From positions 1-64,000 of the forward strand of contig JAGBCB010000005.1 in assembly GCA_017938145.1 (NCBI GenBank): DNA of 64,000 nt. Direction: 5' to 3'. This document shows, piece by piece, positions 30,293 to 49,529 of the stretch (positions are counted from its first letter, which is position 1; each line of letters begins with the position of its first letter). A program made the position numbers and the translations under genes. This stretch comes from Lachnospiraceae bacterium (lineage in GTDB: Bacteria > Bacillota > Clostridia > Lachnospirales > Lachnospiraceae). A model generated the notes under the pieces. That model was given only the letters and a program-made list of their open reading frames with translations. It did no database searches and had not been told where the DNA came from.

Positions 30293-31492
30293 CTATTTTT
30301 TTCGCTGCTTTACATACTCTCTGTATTCGTCTCTTATCATCGAATAAGAAATCAGATTGACAACTAGCTTAACGATTTCTGCATCTTCCAAGTTCCATAA
30401 TCTATCATTCGTTACAGTTCCCAAGTAGAACTTATTGCCGCGAATAATCTTAGGATATCTGTCTGCCACAAACATTCGTAGTTCGTCAATCTTCCCACTA
30501 CCAAGATTTCCTACCGCAATTTTACCATGATGAAGAAAATCAACTTTATTACCGCTTACAAAAACATTATCTTCTACCACCAACTGTAATGCGTGATGTG
30601 TTTCCTTTTCATTATCGTGGGCTACCACTATACACGTCTTCACCTCATTCGGCTTCGTGCTCTTCCAATAAGTTGTGATACCTATGGAATAGAATTCTGT
30701 GCTTCCATCCACCTCTACAAGAAAGGAACGATAAGGACCATAAAAACTTCCTCCGGATGCATTCCCATAACTTAGCATTCGCACCCCGTAATCTTCAATC
30801 AATCGAAATAGTCCATAATCTCCACTTTTCATACGAACTCTGGTATCTAATAAACATTCCAAAAAATTGAATGCCGGAACTGCCAACTCCATCGGTGTGA
30901 GCTTACTAATTTCATAACCGTACTCATCCGCTTCATAACTCTTAAACTCATTCTCCAAATGTGTCTTAAGACTCTCAAAAGGAATACGCTCTGGCAATGT
31001 TCCGATATCCCACTCTGTGTATTCCCCGGCAATCATTTCTTCATACGTCGGAAAATCTTCTATCGGGATGTACTTATCTGATTCATACTTGAAACACTTT
31101 TGCTCCACACCATTGTTACACATTACATAAGTGGCTCCTATCAAGTCTGCATAATCCACCATCTGATAATATGTTTTTTCATCCAGGTACACATCCGGAG
31201 CTTTACACTCGATTACCGAAAGCGGATATATATCGCCTTTCTCATCTACTGCGTGAATAACTATATCCGCTCTTCTTTTCGACTTTATCCCATAATGAGA
31301 TAAATGCTGTTCAACACTAATCATCCCAGCCGGAACATTAAGCTCATTGATAAGATATGAAATTGCCATTTGTCTTACAGTTTCTTCCGGCGTAATAAAT
31401 ATTAACTTCTGACGGATTGGGTCAAGATAGCATTCCTTACCATGACGTATATATATTGGTGGAAGCTTCGGCTCTTTTTTATTATTTTCCAT
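30293..31492 (-). CDS. HsdR-N-domain nuclease-like protein at the end of the defence operon
   Basis: Residues 25-190 match the type I restriction R-subunit N-terminal nuclease domain. The PD-(D/E)xK core is visible as the acid in RRADIVIH and the pair in VIECKAP. The helicase motor of HsdR is absent. The C-terminal 200 residues (VRMKSGDYGLFRLIEDYGVRM...) are unassigned. It is the last gene of the operon starting near 46.4 kb, 16 bases after the duplicated protein, so it is probably a restriction or abortive-infection effector of the same system, or an independent restriction protein of DUF4357/HSDR_N type. Confidence 0.75.
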   Translation of the reverse strand: MENNKKEPKLPPIYIRHGKECYLDPIRQKLIFITPEETVRQMAISYLINELNVPAGMISVEQHLSHYGIKSKRRADIVIHAVDEKGDIYPLSVIECKAPDVYLDEKTYYQMVDYADLIGATYVMCNNGVEQKCFKYESDKYIPIEDFPTYEEMIAGEYTEWDIGTLPERIPFESLKTHLENEFKSYEADEYGYEISKLTPMELAVPAFNFLECLLDTRVRMKSGDYGLFRLIEDYGVRMLSYGNASGGSFYGPYRSFLVEVDGSTEFYSIGITTYWKSTKPNEVKTCIVVAHDNEKETHHALQLVVEDNVFVSGNKVDFLHHGKIAVGNLGSGKIDELRMFVADRYPKIIRGNKFYLGTVTNDRLWNLEDAEIVKLVVNLISYSMIRDEYREYVKQRKK

Positions 31493-31507
31493 ATAATCAG
31501 TCCTTTA

Positions 31508-32731
31508 TTATAACCTTTGCAACTCTCTCTTAATCGTTTCAACCTGTGTTATTGCTTTTCTGATTCTCTTTTGCGCTTTATTGATTTGCAGATGCACCAA
31601 TCCATCCATAAATTCACTATCGAACCACATATCAATTACAGAAGCAAGCTTGCCATACTTAAGCTGCACGCTCTTTTTATTTGACAAATTCCTTAGTTCA
31701 ATATTCAGCCTTTGTAAAGCATTTTGTGCATTCTGTAATTCCATATCCGCTTCTGATAAGGAAGAATATTTCCATATAGACGTAAAAAATCCTTTGCTCA
31801 TCATATCAATAATACTAACATTACTACTATTATTCGTTGCTGCTTGTGCCTGATGTAAACACTGCAATGCGTAATCTGCCGATTCGATTGCTGACTGGAT
31901 TTCCCACTTAAGATCAGCCACATCCGCAGCTTCTTCCTCTTCTTCTCGCAAATTCTCCGGCAACCTAATATTTTGCTGCTTCGCAACCTCAATAATTATA
32001 TCATCACTAACGTTTCCATACAGTTCTTCCAACGATTCCTCTGTCAATAATAGACACGACAAGAATACTGCCTGCTTAACGGTATCTTCATTGCACAGCC
32101 CGGAAATTTCCACCAAGTTTTCATCAGTAAAACGAACACCCGCATCTAAAGCTCTGCTGATAAACTGACTTGCCTCATATTCATCATTCCAAAATAATTC
32201 TTGAACGACCTCAAGTACTTCATCTTCATTTCCATAATCGCTAATGGCCCGTGACCGTGCTATAGCATACTCTGTATTCCACTCATAAAAAGCATCGTAA
32301 AATCTGCTCCATGTAATAGGAGTTGTTACATCCGGACAAAGCTGCTCCTCATACTCACCGACAATATCTGCTGGTGCTGGTATCTGATACCGTTTCGCTA
32401 TATCAATTATCAATTCATCATCAATACAGCCATACAACTCTTCGAGGTCCTGTGATGTAAAACCATCTGCTGATTGATACAATGCTTTCTTAAAACTCTC
32501 TTCTGCGCACAGGTCAACAATTTCCGCTAGATTCTCTCCGGAGAATTTCACGCCACTCTGCACAGCCCTATTCAGAAGCCTTGTGGCACCCTTCTCATCT
32601 TCAAACGCAATAATATTAAGCGCATCAACTATTTCATCTGGTGCACCCATATCTTCAAGGGAGGATATCTTACTAACAGCGGTGCTTACAGCCCAATCAT
32701 TTATTCTCTCGTAATACTCTTCCCATGTCAT
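31508..32731 (-). CDS. Internally duplicated unknown protein in the defence operon
   Basis: Two copies of a roughly 125-residue module are visible. The first runs from WEEYYERINDWAVSTAVSKI to DELIIDIAKRYQIPAP; the second from WSRFYDAFYEWNTEYAIARS to DDIIIEVAKQQNIRLPEN. Both share an LLNRA/FISRA-AxxxGVxF-ENLxEI core and an LEELYG tail. A helical C-terminal region of about 140 residues follows. I do not recognise the family. The start at 32731 is eight bases from GGAGG. Placed between the GmrSD-like gene and the HsdR-N gene, it is a candidate regulator or new defence component. Confidence 0.7.
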   Translation of the reverse strand: MTWEEYYERINDWAVSTAVSKISSLEDMGAPDEIVDALNIIAFEDEKGATRLLNRAVQSGVKFSGENLAEIVDLCAEESFKKALYQSADGFTSQDLEELYGCIDDELIIDIAKRYQIPAPADIVGEYEEQLCPDVTTPITWSRFYDAFYEWNTEYAIARSRAISDYGNEDEVLEVVQELFWNDEYEASQFISRALDAGVRFTDENLVEISGLCNEDTVKQAVFLSCLLLTEESLEELYGNVSDDIIIEVAKQQNIRLPENLREEEEEAADVADLKWEIQSAIESADYALQCLHQAQAATNNSSNVSIIDMMSKGFFTSIWKYSSLSEADMELQNAQNALQRLNIELRNLSNKKSVQLKYGKLASVIDMWFDSEFMDGLVHLQINKAQKRIRKAITQVETIKRELQRL

Positions 32732-32756
32732 AAGCATATCCTCCCTCGAAATCTTT

Positions 32757-34601
32757 CTACTTCAAACTCATTCCAAATTGCTCTATTGTAGTCTCGGCAT
32801 CTCTATCTGCAACAGGTTTTCCCATTGCCATTTCTATTAAATTCAATAACTCCTTTGCTCTATCAATAAAATATGTATCAAAGTCGTCTGCTACTAAGGC
32901 ATCATAATTTACCTTGTGTGATTCAATTCTATCACGTAAATCATCTTCTGATAGTCCAGTAACCTTTTTGAGAATCGTCTTTGTATATACACTCGGTGCG
33001 TTTCCTCCAATAGAACGATTTGTCTCAGCTAAAATCGGAGTCTTGTTGACCACTGAATTGTATTTCTGTCTTTTTATACCAACTTTTTCGCAGTATGCTT
33101 CTGGAAAAATGTGATGAATGTCCGGAGATTGTATCATACTGTTTACAATGTCAATCGTGGTATTATTCATAAAATCTCTACACTTTTCTTTGTAGAGCAA
33201 CGCCATAATTCCTTTATATGCAGCACTCAAACGTGTTTGTAAGGTAAGCAAACGTGTAGATGAGAAAAATGCCGAATTCACCGTTCTTGCCTGATTTGGC
33301 TTACCATGTACTTCATCAATCACATCTTCTATGTCGTTGGCATACCTTGTTTCATTTGCACCACCATACATTTCTCCTAAAATACCGCACCAATACCACT
33401 TTGTAAGTATAGATACCGTATTAGGCTCGCAACATTTGCTCTTTCCAAGTACGGCACAAATAGCAGCTAATGGTATCAGCTGCGTTGTATATGGCAAATC
33501 CCTCATCCGAAATACATATTGGTATTTTAATAAAAATTCCTTTGCCAGTTTGAATCCAGTAAGTACCTCTTCTCGATTCTGTATGTATGCATTAAAATCT
33601 AACGCCAATACATCTTTTTTCTTACAACTAACAGCCCCGATTTTCCCTGCCTGCTTATCCATATAGCTTGAATATAATGTTACTGTTGTAAGGAAGGTAG
33701 TCTCATCAATCCCATCTAACAAATCGGTTCTTAAAGTATCTTCTCTTCCCTGAATTCCTTTTTTTATTATTTCCCAGTCTTTGCGCAAGTCAAAACCGTC
33801 ATTTGTAGCAGGGTCAGCATATGTAGCAAAAGTAGCTGTTACCAACTCAAACACCGTAAGTGGAACTCCACCAGTATTTACATTCTCAAATACTTTACAT
33901 ACTGCTTCTCTAGGTGTAGACTTATCCAATGTAATTACAGGAAGTTTATAATTAGTAATCACTGCTATTACATCACTTTGGAATCTTTTCATCAATTCTA
34001 TGGCTTCAGTGTCGCCTGTATAATGCATCATGTAACCAAACTGCCATTCCATAAGAGCATTACTATCAAACACGATGTTTACCGGGAACATCTTTTGTTC
34101 ATATTCTTTTGCTCTATCTGACAAGTCCAGTTTTATATCTCTATCGAAGTTTTCTTTAACCTTTCTATCCTCCGGAATCGACAAAACTGCATCAAACCTA
34201 TCGGCATCATCGTCCAGACACTCTTTCATAGACAAATAGTAAAATCGCTTAATTGCCTTATTCTTGTCAGTTTTTGTCTCAACACATTTTTTAGAATAAA
34301 TGGATTGAAAAATAGATGTTAGTCTCTGCTGTCCATCTAACACAAGAAACTCTGGAACTGCATTGGGTTCATCAACTCCGGAAATGGTTCTATATTTAAA
34401 CTTAATATCCGGATTGCCATACTGCAAACGCATAATAGCACCCATTGGATATCCTTGGGATAAGCTTGCAATTATACCTCTAATACGATTATCATCCCAT
34501 GTCCAATCACGCTGAAACTCCGGCAACTGAATTTTCCCGGATGACACATCTGATAACAACAAGCTTAAGTTTGTGTCTAACGAACTCGGTGATATAACCA
34601 T
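32757..34601 (-). CDS. GmrSD-like fused restriction enzyme (DUF262 + DUF1524)
   Basis: GmrSD enzymes cut modified (glucosylated hydroxymethyl) phage DNA, and the DUF262 domain is ParB/Srx-like and uses nucleotide. Here the N-terminal DUF262 region has GKIQLPEFQRDWTWDD and FLVLDGQQRLTS. The C-terminal DUF1524 HNH-like nuclease has DIHHIFPEAYCE. One chain of 614 aa holds both, as in fused GmrSD. GGAGG precedes the ATG. It lies 27 bases downstream of hsdR, so the type I and type IV systems are probably co-expressed. Confidence 0.85.
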   Translation of the reverse strand: MVISPSSLDTNLSLLLSDVSSGKIQLPEFQRDWTWDDNRIRGIIASLSQGYPMGAIMRLQYGNPDIKFKYRTISGVDEPNAVPEFLVLDGQQRLTSIFQSIYSKKCVETKTDKNKAIKRFYYLSMKECLDDDADRFDAVLSIPEDRKVKENFDRDIKLDLSDRAKEYEQKMFPVNIVFDSNALMEWQFGYMMHYTGDTEAIELMKRFQSDVIAVITNYKLPVITLDKSTPREAVCKVFENVNTGGVPLTVFELVTATFATYADPATNDGFDLRKDWEIIKKGIQGREDTLRTDLLDGIDETTFLTTVTLYSSYMDKQAGKIGAVSCKKKDVLALDFNAYIQNREEVLTGFKLAKEFLLKYQYVFRMRDLPYTTQLIPLAAICAVLGKSKCCEPNTVSILTKWYWCGILGEMYGGANETRYANDIEDVIDEVHGKPNQARTVNSAFFSSTRLLTLQTRLSAAYKGIMALLYKEKCRDFMNNTTIDIVNSMIQSPDIHHIFPEAYCEKVGIKRQKYNSVVNKTPILAETNRSIGGNAPSVYTKTILKKVTGLSEDDLRDRIESHKVNYDALVADDFDTYFIDRAKELLNLIEMAMGKPVADRDAETTIEQFGMSLK

Positions 34602-34627: not shown

Positions 34628-37537
34628 TTAATAATACTGTTCGATGTAGCTATATGCTTTATCGAATACTTCTTTATCCTTTATCTTGTACTTTACCCAC
34701 ACCACACTTCGCAAAGCTTTTTTTACATCTTGCTTTCCGCTCGTAGTATCTTGCCATCCATCAAAGCGTACAAATTTAACAATATTATCTATATCTGCTA
34801 CTATACGCTCTACAATAATCGGTGTACTTTGATTTTTTACACCATTAAATAATTCCGTCAAGGCAGCAATACCCTTATCAATTTCTTCTTCGGGAACCAC
34901 TTCTTTTTCTGCTCGTGCAGCCTCCTTAGCTAATTCCAAAAGTAATTTAAGAAATTCTATACTTGTAACCAAGCCCTGTTCATGCTTTTCACGCAGGATT
35001 TCAAGCTTTTCTCCAAGTTTCACAAATTTCGGATTATTTCCATGCTCTAAGATTTTTGCAACTAGATTTATCTCAAGCTTTTTCGTTTCTTTTTTTAAAT
35101 CCTTTTTCTTTTCGATAAATTCATCTATCAAATCTGCATCCAAGGATAGAATCTCAAGGCTATCATCTGCTTCTCCCACATAAATATTTTCATGAACTAA
35201 TTCTATGGTTTTCGGGCCGAGTGCAGCCCATATCAAACCGCCTCTTCCATCTGTAGGTTTTATTGATTCATATACTCTTGAAAGCCATTGATAATCATAT
35301 TTATATGGTAATAGGGAGCTGTCCGGCGATAAAGCATTCCACGCCCGATTTACAACTCGATAATCTGCACCAAATGAATCCTTTTCTTTATTAGTCGGCA
35401 AACATTCCTGTGCAGCCATTAATCCTTCCCAACCTTCAAGCATCCTATTAACGCCGATGAAATATGCCAAGCACCGTCTCATTAGTCCGGGAAGAGCTTT
35501 TTTTACTTCATCAATATTTGTAATGATTTTCTTCATACTGGTTTCATCAAAATCCAACGCTTGCGCAACATTATCAAAAATACCAATATAATCTACAATC
35601 AAACCATATGTCTTTCCTTCGTCATATGTACGATTGGTTCTACATATTGCCTGCAATAAATTATGGTCTTTCATCGGTTTGTCCAAGTACATTACCTGTA
35701 AAATTGGCGCATCGAAACCAGTCAATAATTTTGCTGTTACAATAACCAGCTTAAGCGGGCTTGTTGGCTCCCTGAAATAATCCAGTAATTTAGCTTCCTC
35801 ATCCCTATCTCTACGGAACTCCTTATATCTATCCTCCTTATCATTATTCGTATCCATAACAATCGTACTTGCTTCCGGTCCAAGAAGTTTATCCAATTCT
35901 TCTTTGTACATTAAGCAACATTCACGGTCATAGCATACTACTTGTCCCTTATAACCATTAGGCTCAATCTTTGTTTGATAATGATTAGCAATATGCTCAC
36001 AAACTTTACGAATACGGTCTCTATTATACATTATTGCACGCATATTAACTCTACGTGACAATTCCCCTTTTTCCTCTTTAGATAATCCCTCTGTCAAAAT
36101 ATCAAACTCTGCATCAAGTTTGTCCTTATCAACACGCAATTCAACAGGAACAGGTTCAAAATGCAACGGAAGCGTGGCTTTATCACGAATAGAATCCGAA
36201 AATGAATATCTACTCATATATCCGGTTTTATCCTCGATTGCTCCAAAAGTGTTAAAAGTATTTTTATCAATACGATTAATCGGAGTACCTGTCAATCCAA
36301 AGAAAAACGCATTAGGTAATGCAAGTCTCATCTTTTCTCCGAGGTCGCCTTCTTGAGTTCTATGCGCTTCATCTACCATAACAATAATATTATCACGTGT
36401 ATTAAGCTCCTGCTCAACTTCTCCAAACTTGAAAATAGTTGTAATCAGAATCTTTCGCATATCACCCCGGAAAAATTCCATCAATTCGTCTTTTGTTGAT
36501 GCACTGGCAAGATTAGGTATATCTGACGCATTGAAAGTTGCTGTAATCTGTGTTTCCAAGTCAATACGGTCATCCACTATTACCACTGTAGGATTTTTTA
36601 ATTCTGGCATCATACGCAATTTTTGAGCAGCAAATACCATAAGCAGCGATTTTCCGGAACCTTGAAAGTGCCATATCAATCCCTTTTTAGGATAACCGGC
36701 AATAACTCTACTTACAATCAAATTTGCTCCTTCAAACTGCTGATATCGACATATAATTTTATACTTTCTATATTTTTTATCAGTAGCATACATTGTAAAG
36801 AACTGAAAAATATCCATTACATTATTAGGCGTAAGCATATTTTCCATACTCATTTTAACATCTGCTAATGTTCCTTCTTCCTTATGGTCCGCTGTATGCC
36901 ATGGCCCCCACATATTCATAGGCATGTTTATAGAGCCGTATCGATAGCACTTGCCCTCTGTTGCAAAATTAAATACATTTGTAACAAACATCTGTGGAAT
37001 ACTTTTCTCGTATGATAAAATGTCTTTTGCGCCATCTAACCATGTAATGGCATTTCTAACAGGAGTTTTTAGCTCACCTATTGCCACAGGAAATCCGTTT
37101 ATAAGCAACACAATATCCAGTCGCTTTCCATCTTCTTTTTTAGGAAATACCCACTGGTTTGTAACTACATACTGATTCAACTTTAAATCTTCCTTGGTAA
37201 TAGTTCCGAAAAACCGTATCGGAACCATTCTTCCATCTTTACCAAACGGATATGAATTCTCTTCAAAAATAAACTTCTTAAACAACTCATTTTGCGTAAC
37301 TAAATTATGTGGTTGCACCGTTAAAATAAGTGTACGCAATTTATAAATTACTTCGTCCGCACGTGATGGTTCTTCCGCAATTTCGGGATTTAATCGAATT
37401 AATGCATCCTTTACCATCGGCTCCACCATTACATCCGAATATGCACGTTCAAGATTTTCTGATGGTATGTAGGTCCATCCATTTTTTTGAAGAACTGATA
37501 GTATCATCTGCTCCACAGTGTTATCTTCGTTAAACAT
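34628..37537 (-). CDS. hsdR: Type I restriction enzyme R subunit
   Basis: It combines nuclease and DNA translocase. The N-terminal PD-(D/E)xK domain shows the acid in DIVLLINGFPVAIGELKTP at about residue 150. The helicase has Walker A in FQGSGKSL (about 294), DEAH in MVDEAHRTQEG (about 389), GLTGTP and the later ICRTNRTYDEGK region. At 969 aa it has the usual length. The ATG overlaps the 3' end of the second silent HsdS cassette, and AGGAGG lies nine bases before it. It needs HsdM and HsdS from the genes upstream. Confidence 0.95.
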   Translation of the reverse strand: MFNEDNTVEQMILSVLQKNGWTYIPSENLERAYSDVMVEPMVKDALIRLNPEIAEEPSRADEVIYKLRTLILTVQPHNLVTQNELFKKFIFEENSYPFGKDGRMVPIRFFGTITKEDLKLNQYVVTNQWVFPKKEDGKRLDIVLLINGFPVAIGELKTPVRNAITWLDGAKDILSYEKSIPQMFVTNVFNFATEGKCYRYGSINMPMNMWGPWHTADHKEEGTLADVKMSMENMLTPNNVMDIFQFFTMYATDKKYRKYKIICRYQQFEGANLIVSRVIAGYPKKGLIWHFQGSGKSLLMVFAAQKLRMMPELKNPTVVIVDDRIDLETQITATFNASDIPNLASASTKDELMEFFRGDMRKILITTIFKFGEVEQELNTRDNIIVMVDEAHRTQEGDLGEKMRLALPNAFFFGLTGTPINRIDKNTFNTFGAIEDKTGYMSRYSFSDSIRDKATLPLHFEPVPVELRVDKDKLDAEFDILTEGLSKEEKGELSRRVNMRAIMYNRDRIRKVCEHIANHYQTKIEPNGYKGQVVCYDRECCLMYKEELDKLLGPEASTIVMDTNNDKEDRYKEFRRDRDEEAKLLDYFREPTSPLKLVIVTAKLLTGFDAPILQVMYLDKPMKDHNLLQAICRTNRTYDEGKTYGLIVDYIGIFDNVAQALDFDETSMKKIITNIDEVKKALPGLMRRCLAYFIGVNRMLEGWEGLMAAQECLPTNKEKDSFGADYRVVNRAWNALSPDSSLLPYKYDYQWLSRVYESIKPTDGRGGLIWAALGPKTIELVHENIYVGEADDSLEILSLDADLIDEFIEKKKDLKKETKKLEINLVAKILEHGNNPKFVKLGEKLEILREKHEQGLVTSIEFLKLLLELAKEAARAEKEVVPEEEIDKGIAALTELFNGVKNQSTPIIVERIVADIDNIVKFVRFDGWQDTTSGKQDVKKALRSVVWVKYKIKDKEVFDKAYSYIEQYY

Positions 37538-38114
37538 ATGAGAATTCCTCCTGTCTTAGTATTTTTTGTAATAAATATTTTGATTTATCGCTCTGCTTTA
37601 CAAAGGCTGCAAACTGTTCCTGCTCTTGCTTCGGTGGTACCGGAATCATCAAATCTGCAATATTCTTAAGGGTCAAATTGATTTGAGCAATTCCCTTTTT
37701 CTGCACATTATATTGATTTTCAACATAAGGCGACGCAAGAGCAGAAAGCAGATACGTTTTTAAAATGGCTGTGTTTTTCTTAAGTCTAATAATAGCCAGT
37801 GCCTGATTTGTGTTTGCAGGTAATATGTCTGTGGGAACAACCGCAGTACGACCAATCGCCCCCGCTATCGAAAACAAAATATCTCCTTCCAAAAGCTTGG
37901 AACGGCTGAGTTTCTCGTGGCATTCTGATGTAATATGCATTAAGTCAGAACTTAAAATCTGACCTGTAGCTGTAATATTCTCAACCTTCACGAAGTTCAC
38001 ACCCTCGGCCACAAAATTAAAGCCAAGTGTGGTAGGTGTAGTTCCCTTAGTCACCACATCGGACATTTCGCCTATGCTCTGTAGAGGATAATCTCTCTTA
38101 CCAAACTGCTCCAT
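37530..38114 (-). pseudogene. Silent HsdS recognition cassette 2
   Basis: This single target-recognition domain begins at the conserved MEQFGKRDYPLQSIGEM, which continues the SQFME motif encoded just upstream in another frame, and ends in QSDKSKY and a short tail. There is no ribosome site before its first ATG, so it is probably a donor cassette, not an expressed gene. The boundary cores are CCATAAAT at 38111 (one change from CGATAAAT) and ATTTATCG at 37583. It could alternatively be translated by readthrough from cassette 1. Confidence 0.7.
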
Positions 38115-38689
38115 AAATTGAGATTTGAACCTGTCAGCTCAACACCAAATTTTGATTTATCGCTCTGATTTACCAGTTGCTCATACGCTGTTTGCTCCTC
38201 TAAAGGTGGTATAGGAATTTCATAAGCATGTACCACTTTGTCAGTAACAGCCGGATAATTTGCGCCACTAGCCTGATTTATCATAGACTGTGTAAAAGGT
38301 ACACTATTAATGACTCCCCACATATATCCCGTAGTAACCCCCGTACATCTTAAAACACAAAATCCTGTTGAACCGACTACATTATCATCTGAATATGGAT
38401 TTATAGCGATATTTTGCAAATTCGGTCGTACTGTAGAATACATGATGTCTCCTTGCTTTAATACATACTGTGCTCTCGAAGGAGCATCTTTAAGTATATA
38501 TGGCGTCAATCCAGTCACCGTTTTTGATGAATTATCAATCGATGAAATATCTAAATACTGTATCTCATCTGACCTTTCAAATATTTTCACCACACGGCTA
38601 ATCTTCTTTTCAATTACATCTCCAATCTTTTTTACAGGATATCCCTTGCCATAAAACATCTCGATAAATTGAGAATTGCAACTAAGCAA
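38072..38689 (-). pseudogene. Silent HsdS recognition cassette 1
   Basis: A single recognition domain begins at the conserved SQFIEMFYGKGYPVKKIGDVI and ends in PPLEEQTAYEQLVNQSDKSKF; translation then runs out of frame past the junction with cassette 2. The only upstream start is a TTG without a good ribosome site, right after the recombinase stop. Boundary cores are CGATAAAT at 38662 and ATTTATCG at 38155. It looks like a stored target-recognition domain available for exchange into the expressed hsdS. Confidence 0.7.
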
Positions 38690-39662
38690 GGTATCTCTTG
38701 CATGAGTTTTTTACATTCGACTGATTAACCATAGCATACTGCATTGTTGTATCAATACTTTGATGCCCTAATAACACTTGAACCTGCTCTACTGGCATTC
38801 CTTTATCTATTGCCACCGTCGCCAATGTTCTTCTAAATTTGTGCGGATGTACCTTATGTATATTCAATTCTCTTCCCATTTTACGCAATCTAATTTCCAC
38901 CCCACTAATCTGCAGACGGTCATATGGTTTTAAGAGCGACACAAACAACGCATCATTATCGTCTTCTCTACTCGCCAAGTACTTCTGCAAATGAATTTTG
39001 GTTCTTGCATCAAAATATACTTTTCGTTCTTTATTTCCCTTTCCAAATACAATACACTCTCTATTATCAAAATCAACATCCGCTCGGTTTAACTTAACAA
39101 GCTCTCCTACTCGCATTCCTGTGGATGCTAATAAATCTATTATAGCAAGGTCACGTGGATTATCACAATAATCACGCATAATCTCTAATGATTCATCAGA
39201 ATACGTTTCTTTAACCGTTTTACCAGTCTTCACCTTATGAATTCTGCGAACCGGACTCTTAACTATGTAATCCTCATCTTCTAACCAAGAAAAGAATGTG
39301 GACAAAATGCGTCTTACATTATCTAATGTTACTTTACTTACCGTACCTCTTCTCTGATATGTATCAAGATATAATCGCAAATCTTCTGTTGTGATTTGCC
39401 TTTCTGGTTTACATATTTCTTCCAACATATTTCGTATCGTAGACTCATAATACCTCAATGATTTTTCTGAGCACCCCTCAACACGTTTAGCTGCTATAAA
39501 TAGCGGAAGCAACTCTACTTTACATTGCATCTGATCCGGCGTGGTACTTTGTACCACACCGGATAGATGTTTTGTCAACACCTCATCCAACCGCTTCAAC
39601 TGTAAATCCGTCAAATCACCTACTAAATCCTTTTTAATTTCTGCTATTACTTCATATACCAT
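38682..39662 (-). CDS. Tyrosine recombinase within the hsdS locus
   Basis: An N-terminal SAM-like arm-binding domain precedes the catalytic domain. The conserved residues are present in order: Arg in GMRVGELV (about residue 184), His and Arg in HPHKFRRT (about 271-275), His in LLGHQSIDTT and the nucleophile Tyr in MQYAMV. At 326 aa it is XerD-like. GGAGGAG precedes the ATG. Its position between the expressed hsdS and the silent cassettes matches the recombinases that shuffle HsdS domains in other Firmicutes, and it is unlikely to be the ICE integrase. Confidence 0.9.
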   Translation of the reverse strand: MVYEVIAEIKKDLVGDLTDLQLKRLDEVLTKHLSGVVQSTTPDQMQCKVELLPLFIAAKRVEGCSEKSLRYYESTIRNMLEEICKPERQITTEDLRLYLDTYQRRGTVSKVTLDNVRRILSTFFSWLEDEDYIVKSPVRRIHKVKTGKTVKETYSDESLEIMRDYCDNPRDLAIIDLLASTGMRVGELVKLNRADVDFDNRECIVFGKGNKERKVYFDARTKIHLQKYLASREDDNDALFVSLLKPYDRLQISGVEIRLRKMGRELNIHKVHPHKFRRTLATVAIDKGMPVEQVQVLLGHQSIDTTMQYAMVNQSNVKNSCKRYLA

Positions 39663-39723
39663 ATATAGCTCCTCCTTTTTAGTTGATTTTATACTATCGG
39701 AGGATTATCATGGCATTATCAAC

Positions 39724-40851
39724 TTATCCAAGGTAGTCTGCTATGATTTTTTTATATGTCGCATCCAACTCTGCAATCGACTGTTCCAGTTCAAATTTTG
39801 ATTTATCGCTCTGTTCCAAAAAGACTGCAAACCGCTGTACCAAAGCCAAATCCGGAACCGGAAGCTTTACAGCATTTAACATTGCTCCAGTAATTTGATT
39901 TATCGTGGACGTACTCGTTGATATTTGCTTTCTGAAAGCAGGCATTTCAAAAAATGTTTTCAAGTATGAATAATATTCACTGCGAATAATCATCATAAAT
40001 GCACCGAAAGTAGTGGGTTCTGTGATTCCTTTTATTAAAGCCGTTTTACCCACCAATGCAGCACTACCGTTCCTCGAACACATCAATATGTCATTTTCCT
40101 GCACAAGTAATTTTTCTTTAATTTCGCAAGCCACATAGACATTATCTTCAAATAACAATGAACCATTTTGAATATTGCTTGAGCGCAAAACAAGTATACC
40201 TTCCCCCGACTCTACGACATCAGTTGGCTTATACGTTAATCCATTCCAATATGTAGATATTTTGCTTAGCGGTTTTACCGGAAAGCCTTTAGTATTTTTT
40301 TCCGCATCACCAAACAACTCGATAAATTGAGATTTCACCAGTTCTTCCGTCTTTATAAGCAATTTTTTATACGCTTCCTTCGTATCATTCATCGCCCATA
40401 AAACACTTGCTAATGTGCGCTGTTCCTCTATGCTTGGCAGCTCTAATTCAAGATTTTTTAAGTCTTTCCAATTTATCGTAGGCGATAGCGAACCAACTGA
40501 TAACTTAATAGCAGCATCCAAAAAGTAATCCGAACTAATGAATAAAGGAAAAAAATCTTTATCTATCACTTCTTCCCTTGGACGTAGAACCATACCATGT
40601 GCAGAAAAAATGCCATCAAACGGAGCAATCGCAACCTTTTTCTGATAAGCTCTTCGCTTACCAAATAATACATCGCCTTTTTTCATCACAAGTTTTTCAC
40701 CAATAGGAGCTACGTCTGACCCATATCTTTTAACGGTTAAGCATCCAGAATCTAAATGTTCCAAACCAAGATATGTATATTTATCCTCTTCTGTTGGTTT
40801 TTTCTTCTCTGTACTATTAATTGCAATTTCTTCAAAACGATATTTAGGCAC
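39724..40851 (-). CDS. hsdS: Expressed full-length type I specificity subunit HsdS
   Basis: Two target-recognition domains are joined by conserved helices. Domain 1 spans about residues 1-160. The central helix region is EEQRTLASVLWAMNDTKEAY ending LVKSQFIELFGD. Domain 2 spans about 195-345, followed by QSDKSKFELEQSIAELDATYKK. A GTG at 40851 lies eight bases from GGGAGG and is preferred to the GTG at 40860. Domain 2 is bounded by recombination-type cores at 40320 and 39801. It determines which DNA sequence is methylated and cut with HsdM and HsdR. Confidence 0.88.
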   Translation of the reverse strand: MPKYRFEEIAINSTEKKKPTEEDKYTYLGLEHLDSGCLTVKRYGSDVAPIGEKLVMKKGDVLFGKRRAYQKKVAIAPFDGIFSAHGMVLRPREEVIDKDFFPLFISSDYFLDAAIKLSVGSLSPTINWKDLKNLELELPSIEEQRTLASVLWAMNDTKEAYKKLLIKTEELVKSQFIELFGDAEKNTKGFPVKPLSKISTYWNGLTYKPTDVVESGEGILVLRSSNIQNGSLLFEDNVYVACEIKEKLLVQENDILMCSRNGSAALVGKTALIKGITEPTTFGAFMMIIRSEYYSYLKTFFEMPAFRKQISTSTSTINQITGAMLNAVKLPVPDLALVQRFAVFLEQSDKSKFELEQSIAELDATYKKIIADYLG

Positions 40852-41434
40852 AGGAAACACCTCCCATCATTATCCATGAGAACTGGTATTTCCATTTTTT
40901 TATCTGAGCGATAAATTGAGATTTCACCAGTTCATCCGTTTTTACAAGCAACTTCTTATATGCCTGTCTAGTGTTATCAATAGACCACAGTAATTCTGCT
41001 AATTCTTTCTGTTTTTCCATATCCGGAAGTTCAAACTCATAATTTTTTAGGTGCTCCCACTTTACACGAGGAGACAATGAACCTGCGGATTTCCCCACTG
41101 CATACTCAAACAAGTCATCATTTTGTATGATAAATGGTAGTAATTCCGGCAATATCTTATCCGGGTTAGCTTCAATAACTGTAATATCTCCCGAGCAAAT
41201 ACCATCAAAAGGTGCAACCGCTGCTTTCTTTAAATATGCTCTTCTACGTCCAAATAATACATCCCCCTTACGGAACATCTTAGTAAACGTATTTTCTGCA
41301 TCCTCGCTCCACTGTGTTAAATTCACATCCATAGGTGTCAAATGTTCTAATCCTACTATTGGAAAACCTTCTTTACTTCCTTTACAAGTTTCTTTTCGCT
41401 CGTTTGCTACGTCACCTAAATATACCTTAGACAT
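40844..41434 (-). CDS. Half-length HsdS ending in a scrambled tail
   Basis: One recognition domain and the central helix (KQKELAELLWSIDNTRQAYKKLL and VKTDELVKSQFI) are intact. The sequence then continues as AQIKKWKYQFSWIMMGGVSCA, unlike any HsdS. The change falls exactly at the octamer core (40909-40916), where the minus strand reads ATTTATCGCTC, the reversed form of a cassette end. This looks like a product of inversion at the core. It overlaps the start of the full hsdS and the end of hsdM. Half HsdS subunits can still function as dimers. Confidence 0.8.
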   Translation of the reverse strand: MSKVYLGDVANERKETCKGSKEGFPIVGLEHLTPMDVNLTQWSEDAENTFTKMFRKGDVLFGRRRAYLKKAAVAPFDGICSGDITVIEANPDKILPELLPFIIQNDDLFEYAVGKSAGSLSPRVKWEHLKNYEFELPDMEKQKELAELLWSIDNTRQAYKKLLVKTDELVKSQFIAQIKKWKYQFSWIMMGGVSCA

Positions 41435-42926
41435 CTGACTCACCCACCTCTCCTAAAAGTGCATTCAGTATACCATATTGCTCATGCAACTTTTTTGATG
41501 CATTCTCCCAAGCCGCATATCTCTCATGGAGCGTCCGGTTATCTACCGCAACCTCTGTTCCTGTTCCCTTAGCATATAGAGGAATGTTCAATGAAAAATT
41601 ATTATCCTCTATTTCCTTAATTGTTACTACCTTCGCAAAATCAGCATCCGACTCATACTTTGCATAAGCATCTGCTATCTTACGTATATGATTTTCCTCC
41701 AAATAGCTCTGTGCATTTTTACGTTCTACTTCATTGACTGCGTTAATAAATAAAACTTTTCCTCTGCGCTCCGCTTTCTTGTTTTTTCGACAAATCAAAA
41801 TACAAGCTTCCATAGGTGAATTGTAGAACAAATTAGGTCCTAACCCAATTACACATTCAACATAATCTCCTCGCACCATCTTTTCTCTCATATCTGTTTC
41901 TTCATTTCTGAATAATACTCCGTGAGGAAAGAGAATAGCACATCGACCTGTTTTTTCATCCATGCTCTTAAGGATATGCTGCAAGAATGCATAATCTGCT
42001 CGTCCCTGCGGCGGTACACCTAAAAAGTTCCGTCCATATTTATCACTTGCAAAAGCTTCTCTATCCCATTGGCTTATAGAATATGGAGGATTCGCAAGTA
42101 CAAGATTAAAGCTTTTCAGCTCCCCATTCTCCACAAACGCCGGAGCCTTTAATGTATCACCATTCACTATGTTAAAGTCTTTAACGCCATGCAAGAACAA
42201 ATTCATCTTTCCGATTGCAGATGTAAGAGCGTTAATCTCCTGCCCGTACACAGCCACATTTCGCCACTCTTTTTCTTTCTGCTTTAAATATGCAATACAT
42301 GAGATAAGCATACCTGCGCTACCGCATGTAGGGTCATAAATTGATTCCCCAGACTCCGGTTGTAGCATTTCTGTCATCAAGTGTACGACTGTTCTATTTG
42401 TATAAAATTCCTGTGCTGTATGTCCACTATCGTCAGCAAACTTTTTAATCAAATATTCATAGCCTTGTCCTAACTCATCTTCAGGACAATTTGCTATAGA
42501 AAGTGTCTTAGTGCTAAAATGCTCAATTAAGTCCTTCAGCAATCTATCTGGCAAACGATTCTTATTTGTCCATGCACCATCACCAAAAATGCCCTGTAGC
42601 TTATCAGAATTTGCATTTTCAATTTTACGGAATGCATTTACTATAGCTACACCTATATTTTCCGATGTCATTCTCACATCATTCCAATGTGCGCCAACAG
42701 GGACAACGAAACGGTGATTCTCTTCCCATTCAAGAGCTTCTTCATCCCCATCATATTCCGCTAGAATTTGCTCACATTCCTCATCATACACATCGCAGAT
42801 TCTTTTAAAGAATAGGAGCGGAAATATGTACTGCTTATATGCCCCTGCATCAATGCTGGTTCTGAGCAGTACAGCTGAATTCCAAAGGTAGGATTGTAAT
42901 TCTTCGATTGTAATTCTCTTACTCAT
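41427..42926 (-). CDS. hsdM: Type I methyltransferase subunit HsdM, copy A
   Basis: This adenine-N6 methyltransferase has SAM-binding motif I in IYDPTCGSAGML and catalytic motif IV NPPY in LVLANPPYSISQWD. The N-terminal HsdM helical domain (ELQSYLWNSAVLLRTSIDAGA) is present. The start at 42926 follows GGAGG by eight bases and overlaps the stop of HsdM copy B. Directly downstream is the half-length HsdS. Having two intact HsdM genes in tandem is unusual for one type I locus. Confidence 0.92.
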   Translation of the reverse strand: MSKRITIEELQSYLWNSAVLLRTSIDAGAYKQYIFPLLFFKRICDVYDEECEQILAEYDGDEEALEWEENHRFVVPVGAHWNDVRMTSENIGVAIVNAFRKIENANSDKLQGIFGDGAWTNKNRLPDRLLKDLIEHFSTKTLSIANCPEDELGQGYEYLIKKFADDSGHTAQEFYTNRTVVHLMTEMLQPESGESIYDPTCGSAGMLISCIAYLKQKEKEWRNVAVYGQEINALTSAIGKMNLFLHGVKDFNIVNGDTLKAPAFVENGELKSFNLVLANPPYSISQWDREAFASDKYGRNFLGVPPQGRADYAFLQHILKSMDEKTGRCAILFPHGVLFRNEETDMREKMVRGDYVECVIGLGPNLFYNSPMEACILICRKNKKAERRGKVLFINAVNEVERKNAQSYLEENHIRKIADAYAKYESDADFAKVVTIKEIEDNNFSLNIPLYAKGTGTEVAVDNRTLHERYAAWENASKKLHEQYGILNALLGEVGESDV

Positions 42927-44427
42927 GAAAATATCCTCCTTCAAGTAATAATTTTCTCATTTTCTCTTCTGCTTCAACTACCTCTTCCAAAGCTTCAAAA
43001 TACTGACGACGTACTTCTTCCGGTGAAATGGTTTCTTCTCCCTGTTTCTCAATATAATTATTAATCGCAAGTGTATAATCTTTTTCTCTTATATCTTCTA
43101 GCGTAACCACCTTAACGGTATCAACGACATCTTCGTACTCCGTATAGAGTCTATAGATTTCCCGAATATTATCTTCGGTCATAATATTCTGTGCTCTTTG
43201 CGGTGTGTAGATGTTTGACGCATCTATCATACATATCCTGCCTTTGTGATTATGCTCTTTATTATTATTCAAAAACAGAATACATGCTGATACTCCGGTA
43301 CTATAAAATACTCCACTTACTAATGTAATTATGCACTCTAACTTATCGGACTCAACAAGCTGTCTCCTAATATCACCCTCTTTGCCGCTTCGGAATAGAA
43401 CGCCCTGCGGTAAGACGACTGCACATCTTCCACTAGAAGTATTCATAGATTTCACCATATGTTGTAGCCAAGCAAAGTCTCCGTTCGAATCAGTAGGACT
43501 TCCCCACATATTGCGACCATAAATATCACTTGCAAATTGTTCTGCTCCCCAGTTTTTTAATGAAAACGGTGGATTTGCAATTACACAATCAAACTTCTGC
43601 AACTCTCCTCCGTCCAAGAAATTAGGTGAACGTAATGTATCGCCCTGTGTCACCTTAAAATCCTTCGCCCCATGCAAAAACAGGTTCATTCTTGCTATTG
43701 CAGAGGTAGCCAAATTTTTCTCCTGACCATATATCTTTCCATATGTCAGCTTATCATTTTTCATATATCGAATTGCTTCAATCAACATTCCACCGGTTCC
43801 GGCTGCAGGGTCGTATACAGATTCTCCTGCTTTCGGTGCCATTAACATAACTAATAACTTGACAATTGCTCTAGGGGTATAGAATTCCCCTGCATTTTTC
43901 TTTGACAAATCAGCAAATTTCTTTATCAAAAACTCATAGCTATCACCCATAACATCTGAACTATAATTGTTGTTCCCGACTTTGATTTTTGACATATGCT
44001 CAATCAAATCTTTCAATCGTTCATCAGATAACTTTGATTTATCTGTCCAGTTCGCATCATCAAAACTGCTAAACACTCCATTTAAAGTATCGGGGTTGGC
44101 TCGTTCTATACCGTACATCGCATTTACTATTGCCATTCCAACATTTTCACTTTGTTCTCTTACATCTGACCAATGACAACCTTCCGGTATAATAAATCTA
44201 TGGTTCTCCGGAAAGGAAGCATATTCCTCATCCCCATCAGATTCCTCCAATGCAACTTCTGTCTCTTCGTCATATACATCCGATAAACGTTTAAAAAACA
44301 AAAGCGGTGTGACATAACTTTTATATTCATCTTGGTTGATTGGCCCTCGGAGAATATTACACGCTTCAAATAAATGACTGTATAGTTTCTGACTTGTTGT
44401 TTCTTCCGTTGTATATACTTCTGCCAT
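42919..44427 (-). CDS. hsdM: Type I methyltransferase subunit HsdM, copy B
   Basis: Motif I is VYDPAAGTGGML and motif IV is NPPF in CVIANPPFSLKNWG, both intact. The N-terminal HsdM domain (QKLYSHLFEACNILRGPINQDE) is present. It is clearly diverged from copy A across the whole length, so this is not a recent duplication. AGGAG lies nine bases before the ATG. One model is that each HsdM works with a different HsdS in the operon; another is that the two form a mixed complex. Confidence 0.92.
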   Translation of the reverse strand: MAEVYTTEETTSQKLYSHLFEACNILRGPINQDEYKSYVTPLLFFKRLSDVYDEETEVALEESDGDEEYASFPENHRFIIPEGCHWSDVREQSENVGMAIVNAMYGIERANPDTLNGVFSSFDDANWTDKSKLSDERLKDLIEHMSKIKVGNNNYSSDVMGDSYEFLIKKFADLSKKNAGEFYTPRAIVKLLVMLMAPKAGESVYDPAAGTGGMLIEAIRYMKNDKLTYGKIYGQEKNLATSAIARMNLFLHGAKDFKVTQGDTLRSPNFLDGGELQKFDCVIANPPFSLKNWGAEQFASDIYGRNMWGSPTDSNGDFAWLQHMVKSMNTSSGRCAVVLPQGVLFRSGKEGDIRRQLVESDKLECIITLVSGVFYSTGVSACILFLNNNKEHNHKGRICMIDASNIYTPQRAQNIMTEDNIREIYRLYTEYEDVVDTVKVVTLEDIREKDYTLAINNYIEKQGEETISPEEVRRQYFEALEEVVEAEEKMRKLLLEGGYFHE

Positions 44428-44483: not shown

Positions 44484-45806
44484 CTACTGAAACAACGACA
44501 ATCCGCTACCATTAGTATTTAATTCATCAAGTCTATTATAGCAGGCTGCCAGTTCTTCATTGATTTCCTCAAGACTTCTGATAGTCGTCACATTTTCTGT
44601 CTTTTGAAATCTTGCGATAGTCCATTCACCGACATTTATAACATCTTCATTTGCAACTGTAAAAGAAATGTCTTCCACAACTTGCTTATTCTCTAATATA
44701 TCTTTCAGAAGTTGCTTATTCTCTTCTGTAAATGTTGGCTCCATTCTTCGTTCTCTCTGAATCAACTTGGCTGCATCTACAAATAAAACATCTTTATTAC
44801 CCTGTTCAAATACAAGCATAGTTGTATTGATAGTTGTGTAGTTATATACAGAAGGGAGCGATACAACTGCCTTAAGCATACCTCGTTTTACAGCATTCTC
44901 TCTAAAAATTGATAACGCTTTAGACTGCTTAAACAAAAATCCCTGCGGAACGATTACTACCATTCGTCCTTTCTCATTAAGACATTCTAAGCCGCTTGCC
45001 AATAGCAAACACTCCATTTCCTTGCACTGTACATTATCCATCCATTCTCTGCATCGCACCGTTTGATAGCCAATCAGCTCATTTACTTTCATCCCGAAAG
45101 GAATATCCATAATCACTTTGTCATGCATTCCGGAAGTATTAACACTGGTAAAATCCTCCGTAGCCAGAGTAAAATTCTTTATATCTGACAAAATCAGATA
45201 CATGGCTGTATTTTGAATGGCTTCCAAACGAATATCATTACCATAAAAATCAACTTCTTTTCCTCTGATACACTCCACTGCGGAATAACCATAACCTACT
45301 GTACCGTCAAGCACAGACTCTCCGTCATGCACATCCGCTGCTATTCTCATAAGCTCTGCTACTGTATAACTGGAAACCTTCTCATTTCCTCGGTCTTTAC
45401 TAATAATATAGAGCATATACTGCGCCAGTTCTCCATAGTTATCTAATTCTGCTATTGCTGAAATCACGCCAAGAAACGTCTTCTTCCATTGTTCTTCCTG
45501 ACATCTTGAAGGACTAAGCACATCCTGTAGCAATCCTTGACGCAAAGAATATGTTTCTTCTAGTACTTCAACACCTTTTCTCAAGGTTTCAATATCATCA
45601 ATATTGGTAGGACGCAACAGACTCTTTGTCAATTCTAATACTACTCCCATGTATCCTGGGTTCATACATGCATTTTCATCAATCATTTTCTTAAGGCACA
45701 TCACATATAGCATAGTTCCCACATACTGTGTCGCATCATATCCAGCTTTATGCCATAGACCCATCAAGTCATATACAGGTTTGATTGTTCTTTCATCACT
45801 CTTCAT
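44484..45806 (-). CDS. HsdM-like subunit with degenerate catalytic motif
   Basis: The layout is that of an N6-methyltransferase, but the key motifs differ. Motif I reads VLDGTVGYGYSAVE (family usually DPxxGxGG) and motif IV reads IMDIPFGMKV where NPPF/Y is expected. Methyl transfer is therefore doubtful. The start at 45806 (MKSDERTIKPVYDLMG) has GGAGG eight bases upstream. It is two bases from the single-domain HsdS-like gene before it, forming an M-S pair at the head of the operon. It may be a structural or regulatory subunit, or a separate system. Confidence 0.8.
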   Translation of the reverse strand: MKSDERTIKPVYDLMGLWHKAGYDATQYVGTMLYVMCLKKMIDENACMNPGYMGVVLELTKSLLRPTNIDDIETLRKGVEVLEETYSLRQGLLQDVLSPSRCQEEQWKKTFLGVISAIAELDNYGELAQYMLYIISKDRGNEKVSSYTVAELMRIAADVHDGESVLDGTVGYGYSAVECIRGKEVDFYGNDIRLEAIQNTAMYLILSDIKNFTLATEDFTSVNTSGMHDKVIMDIPFGMKVNELIGYQTVRCREWMDNVQCKEMECLLLASGLECLNEKGRMVVIVPQGFLFKQSKALSIFRENAVKRGMLKAVVSLPSVYNYTTINTTMLVFEQGNKDVLFVDAAKLIQRERRMEPTFTEENKQLLKDILENKQVVEDISFTVANEDVINVGEWTIARFQKTENVTTIRSLEEINEELAACYNRLDELNTNGSGLSLFQ

Positions 45807-45807
45807 C

Positions 45808-46395
45808 TTACTTACCTCCAAGTACGCTATTAAGTTTCTCTCTTTCTAATGCAATTATCTGTGCCATGACTTCTTCTTTGAGAGAAATGTTACGGAAATA
45901 TTCAGCTACCTGCTTCTGTTCCTCAAGTTCCATATTTTTCACTACTACATCCTTAATCTTTCCCATAGTCAACATCGGAACCGCTGCACCACTAACCATA
46001 TCCATTACTTGTTCAAGATAAACGCCTGAATTAAGAAATGCAGCCAAATACTCTGACAAGAATATTTTACTTGTATTTCTGATTATGATGCAAAAGGAGG
46101 TAATCAACAATCCTTCATCTTCTTCTGTGATATATGCTGCGTCATATGGGGAAGATAGCTTTACTACGATATCTCCTGCTTTTGTAAGCTTCTTGTCATC
46201 AAACTCCGACTTGTATTCTAACTCATATAATTCATCATGCATAATTTTTCCTCCCTTTATTGCTTTCGGTGGAATAACCTGCACCTTGCCAACTACTACT
46301 TCGTTCTTCTTTTCATTTGCCTCTATTCTTGATGTAATCTGACCACCGATAAAGGCTAAACCTTTTACTTCACTTAACTTAATCTGATTTTTCAT
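45808..46395 (-). CDS. Single-domain HsdS-like specificity protein
   Basis: One recognition domain (GGKIMHDELYELEYKSEFDDKKL, AGDIVVKLSSPYDAAYI, EEDEGLLITSFCIIIRNTSK) is followed by a long C-terminal helix (EEQKQVAEYFRNISLKEEVMAQIIALERE). Start at 46395 (MKNQIKLSEVKGLAF) after AAAGGA. It is the first gene of the defence operon and is paired with the degenerate M-like gene. Dimerisation could give a two-part recognition unit. It lacks the octamer cores found in the other hsdS genes. Confidence 0.82.
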   Translation of the reverse strand: MKNQIKLSEVKGLAFIGGQITSRIEANEKKNEVVVGKVQVIPPKAIKGGKIMHDELYELEYKSEFDDKKLTKAGDIVVKLSSPYDAAYITEEDEGLLITSFCIIIRNTSKIFLSEYLAAFLNSGVYLEQVMDMVSGAAVPMLTMGKIKDVVVKNMELEEQKQVAEYFRNISLKEEVMAQIIALEREKLNSVLGGK

Positions 46396-46457
46396 GATAA
46401 TATCCTTTCTGTGGTTGATATATTTTTTAATGTTCAAAACCGGTTTGTAAAAGAAAT

Positions 46458-48546: not shown

Positions 48547-49527
48547 TCAACCCACTCCATACAAATCATGATTCACTTCGGCATTATAGTAGTGATTCAT
48601 AGTATTTGGAGCATTATACAAAGCTGTAATCAGATATGCCTTAATGTTGCTAACCTTGGTTGTATTACGCTCCATACAGCCAATCACATACTGCAAGTGA
48701 GAAGAATTGAGCTTAAGGAATTTACTCTTTACGAGTGCATACGGATAATCCTCTCCTGCAATACGGATGGTCTTTCTTGGAACACATACGACTTCACAAA
48801 TTAACTGATACAACTCCTCATAGTACTCCCTATCACTCCATGTAGGACAGCTCATAAGTGCATCATATTCTATGTTTTCCCGAATCAGTTCCATATATGC
48901 TTCTGCCTCATCCATCACATCCACTCTGCCTGATGGAATGATATGATTAGTATTATTCAAATTGGTATTATTAAAATCATTATTATTAGGGTCTAATTTC
49001 TTGACAGGTGCCAGTCCATTTTCCAGACAAGTACCAGTCTGCAAATTATCCTCGTCCTCTTTCTGTACCGGTCTATTTTTTGTACTGGTTGAATTTTTAG
49101 ACTCGTCAACTGTCTGTGGTACAGTTTTCTTACTGGTCTGATTTTTAGACCGGTCTACCTGCTCCGGCTTCTCCTGTGACACAAAATTCTTCACGTAAAT
49201 AATATTAGCCTTGCCACTCTCCTGCACCATATCAATAAGCCCGATTTCATTCAATTCCTTTAATGCCCCAACTGCAGTCATCTTGCTGCAGTTGAGGTCT
49301 TCCATGATACTCTTAATGGCGTATTTGATGTAAACTCTATTCTCTTCATCAAACCAACCACTTCGAGCAGACAGTGCCATACGGTCAAGCATAAGTCCGT
49401 AAAGAAGTTTTGCATTATTGGTTATATCTTTAAAACGAGCATCAGTAATCAGAGCTTTAGGTAAGCGATAGAATGTAAACTGCTCCGCTTCCTGCCCATA
49501 ATAAAATGCTAAATCTAATCTTTGCAC
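48547..49527 (-). CDS. repA: RepA_N-type replication initiator
   Basis: The N-terminal winged-helix domain (FTFYRLPKALITDARFKDI, TNNAKLLYGLMLDRMALSA, VYIKYAIKSIMEDLNCSKMT) is typical of RepA_N initiators of Firmicute plasmids and Tn1549-like ICEs. A linker rich in Lys, Ser, Thr and Asn follows, then a C-terminal helical domain. A GTG at 49527 (VQRLDLAFYYG) lies 12 bases from AGGAGG; the ATG at 49557 is within the parB end. With ParA and ParB it suggests the excised circle can replicate and partition for some time. Confidence 0.85.
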   Translation of the reverse strand: MQRLDLAFYYGQEAEQFTFYRLPKALITDARFKDITNNAKLLYGLMLDRMALSARSGWFDEENRVYIKYAIKSIMEDLNCSKMTAVGALKELNEIGLIDMVQESGKANIIYVKNFVSQEKPEQVDRSKNQTSKKTVPQTVDESKNSTSTKNRPVQKEDEDNLQTGTCLENGLAPVKKLDPNNNDFNNTNLNNTNHIIPSGRVDVMDEAEAYMELIRENIEYDALMSCPTWSDREYYEELYQLICEVVCVPRKTIRIAGEDYPYALVKSKFLKLNSSHLQYVIGCMERNTTKVSNIKAYLITALYNAPNTMNHYYNAEVNHDLYGVG

Positions 49528-49529
49528 GG

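Follow-up and report, generated by a model that had tools for sequence, protein, structure and literature searches.

Same-strand HsdS domain cassettes around a tyrosine recombinase in a Lachnospiraceae genome: a tvr-type variant with probable excision and reintegration of cassettes

Organization of the locus

The first 64,000 nucleotides of contig JAGBCB010000005.1 from a Lachnospiraceae bacterium (GenBank assembly GCA_017938145.1), hereafter the window, contain a complete type I restriction-modification set (hsdR, hsdM and hsdS), in which modules encoding target recognition domains (TRDs) of the specificity subunit HsdS are found on both sides of a tyrosine recombinase gene. All these genes are on the minus strand, in the order hsdM, hsdM, a half-length hsdS (TRD1a), a full-length hsdS (TRD1b-TRD2), the recombinase, two TRD2-type cassettes and hsdR. 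The hsdM copies occupy 42919..44427 (copy 1, with N6_Mtase and HsdM_N domains) and 41427..42944 (copy 2), and hsdR occupies 34628..37537. Our initial annotation, made from the sequence without database searches, had placed a tyrosine recombinase among cassettes pointing one way; Pfam analysis confirmed the recombinase domain (PF00589) as well as the HsdS domain (PF01420), and all five TRDs indeed lie on one strand. With pairwise identities of 19–42% the five TRDs are distinct modules, and the TRD, recombinase, hsdM and hsdR frames are all open.

The frame of the TRD1a half-HsdS (40844..41443) crosses a site that we term S1 (TCTCAATTTATCG, 40909..40921), enters the leader of the following TRD1b cassette and stops at 40844-40846. 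This TRD1 cassette (40320..40916, coordinates that include the second octamer; 589 bp from S octamer to S octamer) carries its own ribosome-binding site and a GTG start (40851 or 40860) that overlaps the end of the TRD1a frame. The interval from 40909 to 40320 is therefore a cassette in itself, a TRD1 with its own start between two direct S sites, which the initial annotation had missed. The full-length HsdS in the expressed position spans 39724..40860; its TRD2 begins at site S2 (40320..40332, encoding SQFIE) and ends at site E1 (39795..39810, encoding QSDKSK). The recombinase (326 aa, 38682..39662), whose motifs we take to be the catalytic RHRY set, is preceded by a leader with a predicted hairpin (39652..39735) and followed, 7 bp past its stop codon, by S3 (38662..38674). 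Silent TRD2-type cassette 1 (38072..38689, a mechanically delimited frame) contains E2 (38149..38164), and next comes S4 (38111..38123), in which the octamer has one base changed (TCTCAATTTATGG) and TCTCAATTT is intact; silent cassette 2 (37530..38114) contains E3 (37577..37592). These two downstream cassettes had been described as lacking start signals, and inspection by eye, without a promoter scan, found no ribosome-binding site.

Recombination sites within coding sequence

Seven sites thus bound the cassettes, four of type S (TRD2 starts) and three of type E (TRD2 ends). The octamer positions given in the initial annotation proved exact: CGATAAAT is present at 40909, 40320 and 38662, its reverse complement at 39801, 38155 and 37583, and CCATAAAT at 38111. 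The octamer occurs 10 times in the window against 2.99 expected, a count reached in none of 100 shuffles; eight of the ten copies are within this 3.9 kb, six of them in S or E sites and two (39898 and 40471) as coding matches within TRDs. Across the assembly (3.24 Mb, listed as 78% complete), a longer S version, TCTCAATTTATSG, has four copies, all at the S positions of this locus (the copy at 38111 with the changed octamer base), and a longer E version, AGCGATAAATCAAAAT, has three copies, all at its E positions. Six of the seven sites fit their patterns exactly, the exception being the single base in S4. E1–E3 are identical across 16 bp and 76–87% alike across 38 bp, and S1 and S2 are direct repeats flanking the mobile N-terminal TRD.

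In the direction of the gene, S reads GAAAT-CTCA-ATTTATCG and E reads CGATAAAT-CAAA-ATTTGAAC. Both have the form AAAT-N4-ATTT, in which the octamer supplies the right arm for S and the left arm for E. The centres are co-directional (AAATCTCAATTT in S and AAATCAAAATTT in E), 10 of 12 positions being alike over AAAT-N4-ATTT by reading. We infer that the octamer ATTTATCG, which faces TRD2 in S and E alike, is a recombinase-binding arm.

The idea that conserved coding sequence doubles as a recombination site is borne out by synonymous codons, which are frozen within the sites and free in neighbouring codons. Our comparison set comprised 111 annotated loci (L numbers below), 38 in the window's clade, window included, and 73 others, many of them short stretches. 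In the 38 clade loci a peptide pattern picked out 43 S sites, spread over 30 loci, and 69 distinct E sites, spread over 32, each count covering the sites with the matching peptide. The S sites use CAA in 41/41, TTT in 43/43, ATC in 40/41 and GAG in 35/35 cases, and the E sites AGC in 51/51, GAT in 64/69, AAA in 69/69, TCA in 65/65, AAA in 69/69 and TTT in 52/52. Flanking codons vary (Leu is written six ways, Val four ways, Lys 26/17), and so does the left arm of S (AAA 26, AAG 17). A family-wide HsdS search yielded too few recombinase-free full-length matches (6 of 200 genomes matched, our own included) to serve as a control, and codon usage of hsdM and hsdR in the same loci was taken instead: there the site codons make up 0.16–0.66 of their synonym families (CAA 0.33, TTT 0.56, ATC 0.36, GAG 0.41, AAA 0.49, TCA 0.16).

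Four other same-strand loci (L060, L067, L076 and L087) have S and E octamers one base apart (ATTTATCG and ATTTGTCG, respectively), a difference that makes them useful for tests of site specificity.

Cassette movement among related loci

Comparison of related loci supports the exchange of cassettes between like sites, as first proposed: in some close relatives the same cassette is active in one genome and silent in another, with breakpoints at the sites. In L023, L025 (Flintibacter muris) and L028, whose backbones are about 96–98% alike, a 590-bp TRD1 cassette follows the recombinase in L023 and L028 but separates TRD1a from TRD2 in L025; in the L023/L025 pair, the genome lacking the cassette at a given place has an empty site there. 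The site behind the recombinase in L025 combines its own left flank with a variant right side, ATTTCTGG, which in L023 follows the cassette, and this places the exchange inside TCTCAATTT. The S breakpoints in this pair thus fall between the variable base before TCTCAATTT and an A/C variant after it, an interval that adjoins the octamer and overlaps only its ATTT. In the Bacteroidota loci L044–L046, TRD2 cassettes swap active and silent positions and the position-bound flanks stay put; E-site breakpoints could be narrowed, by eye, only to about GATAAATCAAAAT.

Altogether, a module is on opposite sides of the recombinase in 6 of 15 close pairs (L023/L025, L025/L028, L044/L046, L045/L046, L055/L067 and L060/L067), and in 4 of 8 within the window's clade. 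Movement of the same sort is seen in L136/L137, which we read as tvr loci (see below). Apart from that pair, loci with less alike recombinases share no moved cassette between sides at 88% identity or above, and at identities of at least 85% over at least 300 bp only three matches were found outside close pairs. L031 (3418-6789) contains a 1.7-kb tandem copy of TRD2 plus recombinase, 99.7% alike and giving two recombinase genes, in which each copy starts at an S octamer; this duplication matches what the integration of a circle would give. Contig ends, 21 of which were compiled by hand from 16 clade loci, are near sites more often than expected: 10 of the 17 that fall within 4 kb of the recombinase are at most 150 bp from a site, where 15.4% was the expectation calculated on 21 long loci (binomial P 5e-5). 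This fits mixed arrangements, but also repeated cassettes.

Orientation of cassettes and the recombinase tree

We counted HsdS-profile frames (at least 60 aa, E up to 1e-5) starting within 5.5 kb of the recombinase. None of the 94 frames in the 38 clade loci is inverted relative to it, and in the 73 other loci 43 of 175 frames lie on the opposite strand and 132 on the same strand. A quick recombinase tree, made without a mixture model and with long branches, contains 102 rows; nine of the 111 loci are outside it, six with no hsdS in the stretch and three with a recombinase frame under 300 aa. Sixty rows have the same-strand layout (in 14 of them hsdS is one-sided or cut off) and 42 the inverted one, and layout follows the tree, with 5 changes against 32.5 in shuffles (none of 500 shuffles was as low). 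All 38 clade rows belong to the same-strand group. Their record titles name Bacillota, Bacteroidota, Verrucomicrobiota, Lentisphaerota and one metagenome-assembled genome called gammaproteobacterium; many of the records are such assemblies, whose phylum labels may be wrong in places. Recombinases in plasmid and phage records reach at best 52–64% identity (within E 1e-60).

Relation to known shuffling systems

The initial annotation rightly contrasted this arrangement with the inverted hsdS pairs that are usual, yet excision and reintegration of same-strand modules has already been described for the tvr (SpnIV) locus of Streptococcus pneumoniae, where circles and recombinase dependence were shown (Kwun et al. 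2018, PMC6265443). As in the window, all hsdS modules of tvr are on one strand around a tyrosine recombinase and the hsdM-adjacent TRD is fixed (PMC6265443). The repeats of tvr share a core of ~11 bp in one direction: the repeat behind the C-terminal TRDs (TER, about 70 bp; here E) has a core co-directional with that of MPR (here S), the direct repeat beside the mobile N-terminal TRD, which corresponds to S1 and S2 (PMC6265443). L136 has the same site plan as the window, with the repeats CAAATCCCGATTTAACGAGATGTTTGGGGA and GTCGACAAATCACAATT. The window's recombinase is 63–65% identical to those of three loci that we read as tvr from gene content, on a separate branch of the quick tree. The window further differs in having two silent C-terminal cassettes downstream, two hsdM genes and other site sequences.

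The SpnIII and ivr loci (Streptococcus suis and others) likewise combine a type I system, spare TRDs and a related tyrosine recombinase, but their modules invert between inverted repeats (PMC7394358, PMC6265443), whereas the window has no opposite-strand module.

Modules are also moved as circles by a tyrosine recombinase in integrons, whose cassettes are genes; in the window the modules are protein domains and the sites form part of the coding sequence.

Proposed mechanism and alternative explanations

We consider it highly probable that recombination between sites in direct orientation, S x S and E x E, excises and reintegrates the cassettes of this locus, in the way shown for SpnIV tvr. The recombinase encoded between the cassettes, presumably the agent, would bind the pseudo-palindromic AAAT-NNNN-ATTT, with the strong arm (ATTTATCG) on the right in S and on the left in E, a placement that would explain the inverted octamer noticed at the outset. 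Strand exchange would take place in the site centre, between like sites in direct orientation, and S x S or E x E recombination would cut out a circle, for instance TRD2 plus recombinase (1658 bp) from S2 x S3. If the E site of this circle reinserted into E2, silent cassette 1 would come to stand behind TRD1b and TRD2 would move to a silent place, with no inversion, while S1 x S2 would remove the 589-bp TRD1b cassette and restore TRD1a-TRD2. Two TRD1s and three TRD2s could in this manner give up to six HsdS proteins, and a cell of this strain would thereby switch the DNA sequence targeted by its methylation and its restriction.

In L042 (5030-7945), L043 and L050 (Streptococcus anginosus and others) hsdR is located between the active hsdS and the recombinase, and could therefore travel with an excised circle.

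The initial annotation had also allowed for inversion between opposite cores, that is, a shufflon-like process in which TRD2 would flip, inactivating HsdS or, over a series of flips, putting the modules in a new order. The octamer is indeed inverted at the two ends of each TRD2 (with flanks, 13 of 16 bp are alike by reading), and recombinases in the same tree do occur in inverted-hsdS loci. Free flipping, however, would be expected to make flipped TRD2s common, and the clade count of inverted frames is zero; moreover, exchange at S maps to TCTCAATTT, beside the octamer, where S and E are co-directional and where the centre differs between them in the inverted sense (CTCA / TTTG), and in the four loci with ATTTATCG and ATTTGTCG the octamers themselves are unlike. 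This part of the proposal is thus not upheld, and we regard inversion as very improbable. Another alternative is that conserved hsdS repeats undergo homologous recombination or gene conversion and that the recombinase has decayed or plays no part. This would fit L020, L029 and L032, where the same TRD2 is found in active and silent places (502–566 bp, 99.8–100% alike), and residual tvr shuffling without TvrR has been reported (PMC6265443). We nevertheless think it improbable, as the repeats common to cassettes are short (27–38 bp) and imperfect, the S breakpoints are inside the frozen site, frozen synonyms fit a protein-bound site, and the recombinase frame is open and its tree follows layout. 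It is similarly improbable that the locus is a fixed remnant, a formerly shuffling array now locked in this strain: the changed base of S4 and the single arrangement in the assembly agree with it, but all the frames are open, six of seven sites are exact, and the S site of L023 is more changed still (ATTTCTGG), yet the cassette before it sits elsewhere in L025.

Several observations weigh against excision and reintegration by a tvr-type route. L028 carries an additional A in the exchange region of the site that follows its recombinase. The six moving pairs form three groups of relatives and so are not independent, and 9 of the 15 close pairs display no up/down movement by the filter used. The duplicate TRD2s of L020, L029 and L032 need sister-chromosome copying or another route, and repeated cassettes could by themselves cause contig breaks near the sites. 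Only one arrangement was found in this assembly, and a search of three same-genus genomes revealed no close recombinase (best 37% identity). Finally, the tvrAT pair is absent beside the window's recombinase, only 61 bp separating it from hsdS; at the corresponding place L136 has two frames, one of the Fic/Doc family and, upstream, a small one that has no Pfam match. We take the tvrAT pair as a regulatory add-on, not as a defining part; given its absence and the other recombinase branch, we call the window a tvr-type variant, not tvr.

TRD1 cassettes and the recombinase leader

A search with the exact-octamer pattern for S-to-S intervals of 450–700 bp found 20, of which 10 are TRD1 cassettes. 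In all ten, the upstream frame stays open across the site and terminates at most 8 nt from the candidate start codon of the cassette; in seven of them, the window not included, stop and start overlap and the upstream frame ends in RRCA, encoded by the ribosome-binding site. Insertion of a TRD1 cassette thus appears to keep translation coupled and to leave TRD1a as a half-HsdS. We had considered the sequence after S1 (CTCAGATAAA) as a scar of an inverted TRD2 and rejected this, as the ten TRD1 cassettes have comparable leaders ending at the start codon; we read it as a cassette leader.

In the hairpin predicted for the recombinase leader (39652-39735), UCCUCC pairs both with GGAGGA, the ribosome-binding site, and with the region of the start codon. 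Its fold has a predicted energy of -20.2 kcal/mol (z -3.0, 2 of 200 shuffles), with the ribosome-binding site paired, and a 75-nt cut of the same leader gives a z of only -0.98. The 34 distinct clade leaders have a mean z of -2.40, 17 being below -2, and other hsd starts, picked by rule, a mean of -0.42, with 10 of 108 below -2; an AGGAGG-like site (at least 5 of 6) is mostly paired in 17 of 25 leaders versus 34 of 108 controls chosen likewise. The fold is strongest in L021–L034, and the Bacteroidota leaders (L044–L046, L051) have no such fold. In an alignment of 15 of 19 leaders, four of 11 pairs are kept with two-sided change, with a covariation term of only -0.11. We considered and rejected a small upstream frame within this leader, since its ATG belongs to the predicted stem (CATG paired with CATG) and the reading frame is not kept. 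The tvr locus has a transcriptional attenuator (PMC6265443), whereas in the window the predicted hairpin covers the ribosome-binding site; it may play the attenuator's role in controlling the recombinase.

Taken together, we tentatively put forward a broader and rather speculative picture, in which a clade found under several phylum labels would run a domain-cassette exchange with two site classes, and a TRD1 cassette would insert behind the resident TRD1 with a coupled start. The cell would then make two specificity subunits at once: a full TRD1b-TRD2 and a TRD1a half-HsdS, which might dimerize and recognize a symmetric site. The recombinase would be repressed by an RNA structure masking its ribosome-binding site.

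Neighbouring genes

Directly upstream of the locus, 44484-46437 encodes another N6-methylase, divergent and 445 aa long, and a 209-aa protein that resembles a specificity subunit of half length. The two may form a methylation pair of their own or an accessory one, and the mad2 and mad5 models are among the PADLOC matches in this region. On the 3' side of hsdR (30293-34601) are genes for a GmrSD_N-domain protein (614 aa), a 409-aa protein and an HSDR_N_2 protein (399 aa), which puts the locus in a defence-gene neighbourhood. Further upstream (48547-50426), genes for ParB and for a replication initiator of the RepA_N type with DUF6017 suggest a plasmid-derived or integrative element around the locus.

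Significance

Among the literature matches listed, with subscription papers not covered, we found no description of tvr-type shuffling outside pneumococcus. A published survey of phase-variable hsdS genes searched for inverted repeats (PMC7394358), and its main text contains none of the terms 'direct repeat', 'same strand', 'same orientation' and 'SpnIV'; a survey built on inverted repeats could miss same-strand loci like that of the window. The split between same-strand and inverted layouts over the recombinase tree also makes these loci well suited to finding out what determines whether modules are excised or inverted. A way of switching known from a pneumococcal locus appears here in gut bacteria and, if the locus works as proposed, gut Clostridia, Bacteroidota and others would alter both their methylation pattern and their restriction barrier by moving domain cassettes.

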